From: Sphingobacterium rhinopitheci
GTDB lineage: Bacteria > Bacteroidota > Bacteroidia > Sphingobacteriales > Sphingobacteriaceae
DNA length: 64,000 nt
NCBI RefSeq assembly: GCF_022627575.1
Contig: NZ_JADEYQ010000001.1
Span: forward strand, 372,001-436,000
Direction: 5' to 3'
The notes under the pieces were generated by a model, which was not told where the DNA came from, ran no database searches, and saw only the letters and a list, made by a program, of their open reading frames with translations. Shown here one piece after another: positions 57,280 to 60,272 of the stretch (positions are counted from its first letter, which is position 1; each line of letters begins with the position of its first letter). The position numbers and the translations under genes were made by a program.

Positions 57280-57732
57280 TTAAGGATCAATTCTTAAAAA
57301 ATCACCCTCTCCATTAAATTCCAAATCCAAGCCATTTGTTAATTCTACATCAAAGTTAGACTTTTCTTTATCTATACTATTGATCAATGCCGGAGCATAT
57401 TTTGTGTTCACGTAATCGACGATTTTAGGATTAATAAAAGCTGTTGGTATACCTTGACGATCATCTCTCGCATCTACCTCGTCCCAATCACCGTTGCTAT
57501 CAAACTTGACTTCAATACCATTATTTAATAATACTTCATAAGTCGCACGTCCTACAATTTCATTTTCTTTTACAACAGAAAGGATTTGTGAACCATTAAA
57601 ATTATCTTTCAGAAATAAAACCGCATTGCTTGGCAAATCATTGGAAGAGATAACCTCTTCTTTTTCACAAGCTGTAAATAACAATACTACAGCACTTAAA
57701 GCGGATAAATTAAAACCGATCTTTCTCTTCAT
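57280..57732 (-). CDS. PepSY-like lipoprotein
   Basis: The 150-residue protein has a lipobox ending at Cys 22 (LLFTACEKEE) and so is lipid-anchored. The mature part carries two copies of a PepSY-like (PF11396) beta module: LLNNGIEVKFDSNGDWDEVD and VELTNGLDLEFNGEGDFLRI. It is a paralogue of the upstream gene, with the same two modules and the linker NPKIVDYV. It lies 39 bases after that gene, in the same direction, without a terminator between. Domains of this kind are small periplasmic folds that may inhibit or sense envelope enzymes; here the nearby two-component system suggests an envelope-signal role. Confidence 0.85.
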   Translation of the reverse strand: MKRKIGFNLSALSAVVLLFTACEKEEVISSNDLPSNAVLFLKDNFNGSQILSVVKENEIVGRATYEVLLNNGIEVKFDSNGDWDEVDARDDRQGIPTAFINPKIVDYVNTKYAPALINSIDKEKSNFDVELTNGLDLEFNGEGDFLRIDP

Positions 57733-57771: not shown

Positions 57772-58212
57772 TTAATGCTCAATTCCTATAAACTTCCCTT
57801 GTTTATTGAAAACTAATTCTAAACCATTAGTCAACTCGACTTCTATCTTTCTACCATCCAATGAAATCTGTACTATCTCATTATTAGGGAAGCTCTTTTT
57901 CACGTATGCTACTATTTTAGGGTTTACGATTTGATAAGGAACCGCTTTCTTTTTAGCATCTACTTCTGTCCAATTACCTTTGCTATCAAATTCTATTTCA
58001 ACACCATTATTCAACTTAACATCATAAGATTTTGAAAATAGTTCTTTTTCCATTTTGATATAAGAAACCTGATTCACCGCATAATAAGTAGTTATAAAAT
58101 TTTGGGCCACCTTTGGCAAATCTCCAAATTGAACCAATTTATCTTGCGCTTTAACGCCTACTGCTACAAAAGCTAAAGCTACTACTAGGAATAATTTTTT
58201 TATTGTATTCAT
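57772..58212 (-). CDS. Secreted PepSY-like protein
   Basis: The 146-residue protein has a signal peptide cleaved near VKAQ (about residue 23) but no lipobox, so it is soluble in the periplasm or exported. The two PepSY-like modules are KLNNGVEIEFDSKGNWTEVD and VELTNGLELVFNKQGKFIGI, and the linker is NPKIVAYVKKSF. It is the first gene of a two-gene operon with the lipoprotein, placed behind the histidine kinase and preceded by a copy of the 25-bp element that also precedes the response regulator. This makes it a probable target of that regulator. Confidence 0.87.
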   Translation of the reverse strand: MNTIKKLFLVVALAFVAVGVKAQDKLVQFGDLPKVAQNFITTYYAVNQVSYIKMEKELFSKSYDVKLNNGVEIEFDSKGNWTEVDAKKKAVPYQIVNPKIVAYVKKSFPNNEIVQISLDGRKIEVELTNGLELVFNKQGKFIGIEH

Positions 58213-58237: not shown

Positions 58238-58272
58238 CAAATAACAACAATGAATTAGGAAAGATTTGGGAA
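58238..58272 (-). promoter_or_regulatory. Direct-repeat operator and -7-like box of the PepSY operon
   Basis: On the minus strand TTCCCAA (58266-58272) and TTCCTAA (58255-58261) are repeated with 11-bp spacing, followed by TTCATTG and, 2 bases later, a -7-like box GTTATTTG (58238-58245). 22 of 25 bases match the element at 60248-60272. The layout fits activation by an OmpR-family dimer in the -33 region. Start of the PepSY gene is 25 bases further on. Confidence 0.6.
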
Positions 58273-58276
58273 TAAT

Positions 58277-59551
58277 CTATTTTTTTATAGAAAAAGTATG
58301 TAAATCATCTACATACAAATACTGCAACGTTAAAAAGGGATATTTGTTCAAAATAGAACTCACTATTGATAAACCTAAACCATTAGATTGATTATCTTGT
58401 TTTCCTTTATAAAAACGCTCAAATATATAATCCGGATTTAGGGCTCCTGAATTTGAGGTATTTGATATACGTATCTCATTAACGGATATATCTACCATTA
58501 TCTTACCCTCATCCATATTATATTTTATAGCATTACGGATAAGATTAGAGAACAAAATAGATGCTAGATTGGTATTCATATTTACGGTAAATTCTCCTTG
58601 GATATTAACATCAATAGAAAGACCTTTAAATTCAATAATCTCTTTCAACTCATTTATGATATCCAATAATAGCGTATTGCCATTCACTTGACCTACACTA
58701 TTATACTGATCATTATCAATCCGGGACAGCAACAACAACGATTTATTTAGATTCACCATACGAAGCAATGATTTCTTAGCATCTGCTATTTTTATCATTT
58801 GCTCTTCACTCAGGGATTCATCTGACAATACTAATTCTAACTTATTAATGGTAATAGCTAGTGGTGTTTGCAACTCATGAGAAGCATTTTCCAAGAAAAC
58901 TTTTTGATTGTCAAATGCTTTCTCATTCCGAGCAATCATGGATTCGATATTCGCATTCAACACCTCAAACTCCTTCACATTGGTAACAACAGGAATAAAT
59001 GATGTTACTTCCCCAAATCTATATTCATTCAAATTATGCAAAATCCGAGTGAAAGGTTTCCAAGCCTTAGAAAGTACATAATAATTGACCATCAAAATAC
59101 TCAATACAATGACAATATATAAGACAGTCAATGAAATTGCTAAATTGATTAAATAATCGTCTTCTTCGACAGTAGATGTTCTTATCTCGAGACTATATGG
59201 AGTACCATCTGCCGTATTAAAACTAGTCCTCAGAACTCTGTAGGGTTCATCTTCGCCGTCATACGGCATAAAAATAAACTCTCTAGAAAAAACATCCTTA
59301 ACTGGTACATTCTTTTCAACAGAGGGGGTAATACGAAATTGATTGATACCGAAATCTTTAGTTTCTAACAACGTACTATCAGAATAAACAGCACGTATAA
59401 TTTCAATTTTTTGATTCTTCAGGCCATCATCGATATTATCGTAAACCTCATCCATCATAAAGGCATAAAAAAGCAAAGCCCAAATTGCCATTACAATCAA
59501 AATAACGACTGCAATATAGCGGCTTGTATAATTTTTTACGGAAATAGACAT
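58277..59551 (-). CDS. Membrane sensor histidine kinase
   Basis: The 424-residue kinase has two membrane helices (about 13-33 and 133-155) around a periplasmic domain of about 100 residues rich in acidic residues. A HAMP-like linker leads to the H-box FLENASHELQTPLAITINKLE (His near 229), N-box SNLIRNAIKYNMDEG, and the F/G2 region FERFYKGKQDNQSNGLGLSIV. The G1 site reads ISNTSNSGALN without the usual DxGxG, common in Bacteroidota kinases. Its start codon overlaps the response-regulator stop by one base, so the pair is coupled. The PepSY operon follows immediately. Confidence 0.94.
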   Translation of the reverse strand: MSISVKNYTSRYIAVVILIVMAIWALLFYAFMMDEVYDNIDDGLKNQKIEIIRAVYSDSTLLETKDFGINQFRITPSVEKNVPVKDVFSREFIFMPYDGEDEPYRVLRTSFNTADGTPYSLEIRTSTVEEDDYLINLAISLTVLYIVIVLSILMVNYYVLSKAWKPFTRILHNLNEYRFGEVTSFIPVVTNVKEFEVLNANIESMIARNEKAFDNQKVFLENASHELQTPLAITINKLELVLSDESLSEEQMIKIADAKKSLLRMVNLNKSLLLLSRIDNDQYNSVGQVNGNTLLLDIINELKEIIEFKGLSIDVNIQGEFTVNMNTNLASILFSNLIRNAIKYNMDEGKIMVDISVNEIRISNTSNSGALNPDYIFERFYKGKQDNQSNGLGLSIVSSILNKYPFLTLQYLYVDDLHTFSIKK

Positions 59552-60222
59552 TATATCAATTTATATCCTACACCATACACTGCTTGAATATCAAAATCTG
59601 CCTTTGCCTCTTTGAGCTTCTTTCGTAAATTCTTTACTTGCGAATAAATAAAATCTAAATTATCTGCTTGATCCGCATTGTCACCCCATACCGTTTCTGC
59701 TATAGTGGTTTTCTCTAATAATTTGGTAGGGCGAAGTATGAAATAATAAAATATATCAAATTCCTTACGATTCAATGTTACGATCTGATTATTAATCCTC
59801 ACTTCTCTATTTTCAGGATTTAAAGTTGCATTTTTATAGGTAATAACTTGCTCACCACCTTGCTTACCTCTTCTAATAATAGATTTGATACGTGCTAAGA
59901 GTTCAGAAAAATGAAAAGGCTTTGCTAAGTAATCATCAGCACCAAGCTCTAACCCGGCAACTTTATCTTCAACAGAATCTTTAGCAGACAATATCAAAAT
60001 AGATTGCTTTTTTCCCTCCTCCTTCAATCGTTGTAAGAGCTCTAAACCAGTACCTCCAGGCAACATTATGTCTAATAGAATACAATCATAATCATAAGTC
60101 AAAACTTTTTCCAAAGCCGCATCAAAAGACATAGCAGTTTCTATCAGAAAATTTTCTTTTTCTAAAAATTCCTTAATACTAGCTATTAATTCTATTTCGT
60201 CCTCTATTAGTAATATCTTCAT
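59551..60222 (-). CDS. OmpR/PhoB-family response regulator
   Basis: From the ATG at 60222 the regulator has 223 residues: receiver domain 1-115 with IEDE, phosphoacceptor Asp 51 in ILLDIMLPGG, ILSAKDS and LAKPFHFSELL, and a winged-helix domain (125-223) with TLNRKEFDIFYYFI and AVYGVGYKLI. The earlier ATG at 60240 is rejected because it lies inside the -7-like box at 60238-60245. The kinase overlaps by one base (TAATG). An operator of two TTCCTAA half-sites precedes the gene, which suggests self-activation. Confidence 0.95.
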   Translation of the reverse strand: MKILLIEDEIELIASIKEFLEKENFLIETAMSFDAALEKVLTYDYDCILLDIMLPGGTGLELLQRLKEEGKKQSILILSAKDSVEDKVAGLELGADDYLAKPFHFSELLARIKSIIRRGKQGGEQVITYKNATLNPENREVRINNQIVTLNRKEFDIFYYFILRPTKLLEKTTIAETVWGDNADQADNLDFIYSQVKNLRKKLKEAKADFDIQAVYGVGYKLI

Positions 60223-60237
60223 AGTTGTATGAAAGTA

Positions 60238-60272
60238 CAATTATAAGCAATGAATTAGGAAAATTTTAGGAA
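60238..60272 (-). promoter_or_regulatory. Direct-repeat operator and -7-like box of the response-regulator operon
   Basis: On the minus strand two TTCCTAA copies (60266-60272 and 60255-60261) are 11 bp apart, followed by TTCATTG and a -7-like box TATAATTG (60238-60245), one mismatch from TAnnTTTG. Both the element and its distance to the -7-like box are the same as at 58238-58272. Confidence 0.6.

Follow-up and report, generated by a model that had tools for sequence, protein, structure and literature searches.

A tandem 11-bp repeat stands ahead of both a response regulator-kinase gene pair and two PepSY-like genes in the 64-kb stretch of DNA analysed here (the window). This repeat is probably the operator of the linked OmpR-family response regulator (RR), which would use it for class II activation of its own operon and of the PepSY-like genes, PepA and PepB. 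Judging from sequence, the two-component system very probably switches on its own genes along with the PepSY-like pair.

Two-component systems that regulate themselves and have PepSY-type neighbours are already known. As far as our searches show, what is new is the operator itself, its fixed promoter geometry and its spread over two orders, together with the separate operator of the PepSY-like pair and the finding that a 'PorY family' kinase is linked to an RR of OmpR type. Among open-licence papers we found neither a published TTCCTAA operator in Flavobacterium nor a description of this operator. OmpR-type operators have been little mapped in Sphingobacterium, Chryseobacterium and Flavobacterium, as far as searches show, and these genera now have a precise operator consensus, a candidate regulator and a list of targets. 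In addition, PepSY-like proteins of PF11396, for which many structures exist but no function, gain a concrete candidate partner.

The locus and its twin operators

The RR gene (59551-60222, minus strand; MKILLIEDE...) is best read from the ATG at 60222, a start conserved among the loci of the genus; a TTG start at 60240, given in the list of open reading frames, is unlikely. The sensor histidine kinase (58277-59551, minus strand; 424 aa) scores 475.6 bits against the NCBIfam model NF052314 'PorY family' (cut-off 350) and is the sole kinase of this type in the genome. The NCBIfam name, which refers to type IX secretion, may mislead, as the linked regulator is OmpR-type. A structure search with the full kinase returned kinase cores only, among the matches listed, and one with the sensor domain gave weak matches of PAS-like type, the WalK sensor domain (TM of about 0.5) included, none of which reached E<=0.001.

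The PepSY-like proteins were originally described as two secreted proteins. PepA (57772-58212, minus strand; 146 aa), preceded by an intergenic gap of 64 bp, does carry a signal peptide and matches PF11396 proteins of known structure, 3due among them. PepB (57280-57732, minus strand; 150 aa) also belongs to PF11396, but its lipobox (LLFTAC) makes it a likely lipoprotein rather than a simply secreted protein, and the description needs amending to that extent. The two are the only PF11396 proteins of the genome, and they match PF11396 alone; the PepSY domain itself (Pfam PepSY/IPR025711) was not found in either.

Two 25-mers on the minus strand, TTCCCAAATCTTTCCTAATTCATTG at 58248-58272 and TTCCTAAAATTTTCCTAATTCATTG at 60248-60272, are identical at 22 of 25 positions, just as originally described. 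Only three same-strand pairs of 25-mers in the window are as alike, and the operator pair is one of them. The operator of the RR-kinase promoter reads TTCCTAA-AATT-TTCCTAA (60255-60272, minus strand, within the 25-mer at 60248-60272). That of the PepSY-like pair reads TTCCCAA-ATCT-TTCCTAA (58255-58272, minus strand, within the 25-mer at 58248-58272) and starts 4 bp past the kinase stop codon. The TTCCYAA half-sites of the original description, 11 bp apart, are present in each element; they run head-to-tail with a period of about one helical turn at both sites of the window and likewise in 103 aligned sites. When two mismatches are allowed, the motif is found four times in the 64-kb window against 1.92 expected, which is not significant. 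Since counts within the window are close to chance, the case rests on exact matches, on the whole genome and on conservation. The exact pattern TTCCYAA-N4-TTCCTAA, for which a whole-genome search had been proposed, occurs twice in the complete 3.69-Mb genome, both times at these sites.

Each operator is followed by a -7-like box: TATAATTG at the RR-kinase promoter (60238-60245, minus strand; TAnnTTTG with one mismatch) and GTTATTTG at the PepSY-like promoter (58238-58245, minus strand). Reading the sequence confirms the gap of two bases between each 25-mer and its box. At both promoters the TTG of the box begins 14 bases past the operator, and the -33 TTTG is absent. We compared 80 loci from named genomes (Sphingobacterium, Algoriella, Empedobacter, Faecalibacter, Chryseobacterium, Flavobacterium, Paenimyroides, Capnocytophaga, Bergeyella and others), in which the same offset of 14 holds at 72 of 72 PepSY sites and 29 of 38 RR sites. 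The consensus, wTTCCYAAWTBTTTCCYAAWTY, is made of two 11-bp units (wTTCCYAAWTY twice) and is followed by TAnnTTTG, which starts 9 bases after the second half-site; in most PepSY promoters the box is GAnnTTTG. That is, the operator overlaps the -33/-35 region at a fixed spacing to the -7/-10 box, which is class II geometry. A repeat that takes the -33 place and keeps an invariant spacing to the -7 box agrees with a class II activator in contact with RNA polymerase. The suggestion that the direct repeat replaces the -33 element gains support from this distance, which is fixed across two orders.

In the mechanism that we propose, two subunits of the neighbouring OmpR-family RR would bind the tandem 11-bp repeat head-to-tail. 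With the operator overlapping the -33 place, RNA polymerase would be held at a constant spacing to the -7 box, and transcription would depend on the phosphorylated RR (class II activation). The site at 60255-60272 would provide positive autoregulation of the RR-kinase operon and that at 58255-58272 the induction of PepA and PepB. Both binding by the linked RR and activation rather than repression are steps that we infer. A divergent gene (from about 60414, plus strand; AsmA/TamB-like by eye) is not favoured as the target of 60255-60272, because the orientation and spacing of the site fit the RR promoter.

Conservation across two orders

Across the loci of the genus and of the named genomes, essentially all those with a PepSY-like gene carry the tandem 11-bp repeat upstream of it. 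Within the genus we compared 30 loci, the window's included, the 29 relatives having kinases of 51-63% identity. The RR is present in all 30 and PepA in 28, and the tandem repeat accompanies PepA in every one of the 28: in 24 it has no more than one mismatch, and in the other four its second half-site is of the TTCCAGA type. The repeat upstream of the RR is also found in most genus loci and is absent, for example, from L010, L023, L028, L029, L031 and L035. Two loci (L036 and L037) have no PepSY genes and keep the RR site. Over 61 genomes of the genus, exact TTCCYAA-N4-TTCCYAA gives about 100 matches versus about 17 for the reversed pattern.

Among the 80 named-genome loci, 72 of 77 regions upstream of PepSY-like genes or gene clusters hold a site matching at least 13 of 14, compared with 0.16% of shuffled sequences. 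Many Chryseobacterium loci have the order Pep-(Pep)-RR-kinase, with a single operator ahead of Pep. A leave-one-out matrix run over the 577 kb of these 80 loci gave zero matches on the opposite strand; its same-strand matches all lie before RR or PepSY starts, save two that reflect gene calls (L104 and L125). Eight named loci lack PepSY genes: the RR site is present in three, and five have no gene-assigned match, although in one of the five (L104) a site sits at a mis-called RR start. With a matrix built from Flavobacteriales sites only, the two operators are the two best hits of the window, at 37.6 and 29.9 bits, and the next hit in the 64 kb scores 12.5. A broader model (R1) ranks the same two first and second in their own genome, both being among its training sequences. 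In 20 more distant kinase loci the RR-promoter repeat is recognisable in about seven, so we do not claim class-wide conservation.

Loss of the repeats upstream of orthologous genes had been named as grounds for abandoning the original prediction. They are instead kept ahead of orthologous RR and PepSY-like genes in two orders, which supports the prediction of an OmpR-type operator at both promoters.

Two side observations belong here. In one distant locus (L168, genome G184), the RR promoter and the PepSY promoter share one altered half-site, TTCTAAA, as if the operators change together. In L045, L047, L048 and L056 (site at 1501), which lie elsewhere in the genomes of relatives, the operator lies just upstream of PepSY-like proteins of 66-77 aa that have no signal peptide.

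Attribution, regulon and output

The operator tends to be found where the kinase is, and most kinase-less genomes lack it. Four of the 61 genus genomes have no kinase at E<=1e-40, and the only three without an operator (E<=0.01) fall among these four (P of about 1e-4, kinship ignored); one of the three, G006, is 80% complete. A class-wide sample of 149 genomes has strong operators (E<1e-5) in four. The strong operators outside the genus belong to two genomes (G199 and G166), and each directly follows a PorY-family kinase. As the window's genome encodes seven OmpR-family regulators, attribution to the linked RR rests on linkage and co-occurrence. Together with the conserved RR-promoter repeat and its fixed spacing, the co-occurrence of operator and kinase points to the self-regulation that had been predicted. 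Two genomes (G005 and G041) have no close match to the kinase and yet keep an isolated site, which may be left over from the loss of RR and kinase or may mark a missed gene. In both, this operator and its -7 box (L049 and L057; site at 1501) follow a long open reading frame that looks glycoside hydrolase-like by eye.

These observations bear on who binds the sites and to what effect. It is rather improbable that the RR binds both as a repressor, covering the promoter between -33 and -7 in a negative loop. The operator does sit within the promoter, and a protein bound there could obstruct polymerase. A repressor would tolerate varied spacing, however, whereas the missing -33 element and the spacing, invariant at all 72 PepSY sites, are as expected for polymerase contact; moreover, BqsR is an activator (PMC4682146) and phosphorylation of DbfR raises its own operon (PMC12714742). 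Slighter still is the chance that the sites belong to another regulator, such as a global OmpR-type factor or one for envelope stress, with the linked RR merely one of its targets. This would agree with the number of OmpR-family regulators in the genome, with operators ahead of other genes and with the isolated operators that persist in two genomes, but operators are strictly tied to RR-kinase loci across orders, and kinase-less genomes mostly lack them. Chance or structural similarity with no regulatory role, to which the two-mismatch counts in the window might seem to lend something, has a negligible probability: it is contradicted by the uniqueness of the repeats in the genome and by their conservation across two orders, and we regard it as ruled out. 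Activation by the linked RR is the reading that we carry forward.

The circuit was predicted to be compact and self-activating, with two envelope proteins as its output. Its compactness and its self-site are supported by the sequence evidence, and closure is not, because two extra operators precede other exported proteins in the same genome. One (G000:C11:283499-283538; 28 bits) lies before a 105-aa exported protein of unassigned family (L142:1145-1459, minus strand), downstream of which come an unassigned gene and an RND-type adaptor protein. The other (G000:C6:38516-38545; 21 bits) lies before an exported protein containing HAEPLYLDLMRDLGARKGE. In relatives, the targets include the HAEPLY protein (as at C6), RND adaptors, a PALP-family enzyme and a Porin_O_P protein. 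A conserved exported protein with the motif HAEPLYLDLMRDLGARKGEAE and no Pfam match is encoded in L050-L052 and L143, with an operator ahead of it in several species. The notion that the output consists of two envelope proteins is not supported as it was put: other exported proteins are candidate targets, the RR self-site is lost in nine of the 80 loci, which retain the PepSY site downstream of the kinase, and the PepSY-like pair may be inputs or modulators instead.

As for what PepA and PepB do, the chances are about even that they are periplasmic modulators of the kinase in a feedback role, by analogy with DbfQ in Vibrio. Only slightly short of even is the chance that they are ordinary outputs, for example inhibitors of periplasmic hydrolases or buffers of metal or heme, which would oppose the feedback step and leave the operator circuit as it is. 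PF11396 structures resemble beta-lactamase inhibitor protein, and the proteins have been proposed to be inhibitors that bind their partners (PMC2954215), and the PepSY-like BT_0922-0923 of B. thetaiotaomicron are up under iron limitation (PMC10434189). Against this stand the lasting linkage to one kinase family with a dedicated operator, and the binding of DbfQ, a PepSY protein, to the sensor domain of its kinase (PMC12714742), both of which are compatible with an ordinary output too. More tentatively, one operator, kept in at least two orders of Bacteroidota, may drive the RR together with a soluble and a lipoprotein PepSY-like partner that bind the kinase sensor and set the balance of kinase and phosphatase, so that twin copies of a single promoter would encode an activating and an inhibiting loop.

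Relation to known systems

Among the nearest known systems is DbfQRS of V. cholerae (PMC12714742), in which an RR and a kinase have one PepSY gene, or in some modules two, as neighbours. DbfQ is encoded together with DbfRS; by binding the sensor domain of the kinase it turns the kinase towards phosphatase activity, and the dbfQRS operon is positively autoregulated, its promoter rising with RR phosphorylation (PMC12714742). In the window the PF11396 genes are likewise adjacent, that is, within four genes of the RR and kinase. The two differ in that DbfQ is a Pfam PepSY protein, surveyed as IPR025711 (PMC12714742), whereas PepA and PepB are PF11396 proteins. PF11396 and PepSY have been assigned to one superfamily (PMC2954215). 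Moreover, DbfQRS is one operon, while here the PepSY-like pair has a separate conserved operator. Because PepA and PepB match PF11396 only, the module may work like DbfQRS and is not filed as DbfQRS. The groups named in the DbfQRS survey are Proteobacteria, Terrabacteria and Fusobacteria; a search of the paper's text gave no word beginning with Bacteroid (PMC12714742).

The window kinase shares its sequence family (NF052314) with PorY of P. gingivalis, an orphan kinase whose partner is the PglZ-type PorX and whose role is the control of type IX secretion (PMC4800418). Unlike that PorY, it directly adjoins an OmpR-type RR; it is thus not an orphan, and we do not place the pair among PorXY regulators. 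Kinases labelled 'PorY' can therefore belong to a linked OmpR-type system, and a role in type IX secretion is not transferable by name. P. gingivalis also has HaeSR (PG0719/PG0720), a Bacteroidota system whose genes lie near that of PG0717, a lipoprotein in which DUF2874 (PF11396) occurs four times. HaeR binds its own promoter, as is predicted for the RR of the window. HaeSR differs in its known role, which is to regulate hemin uptake and gingipains (PMC3764172).

For the operator, the nearest parallel is BqsR of P. aeruginosa, which activates from tandem pentamers (TTAAG-N6-TTAAG), the downstream one overlapping -35 (PMC4682146). BqsRS/CarSR (PMC4682146, PMC12666569) uses another half-site in a gammaproteobacterial promoter and senses Fe2+; what it has in common with the system in the window is a predicted or known activating RR whose half-sites lie 11 bp apart.
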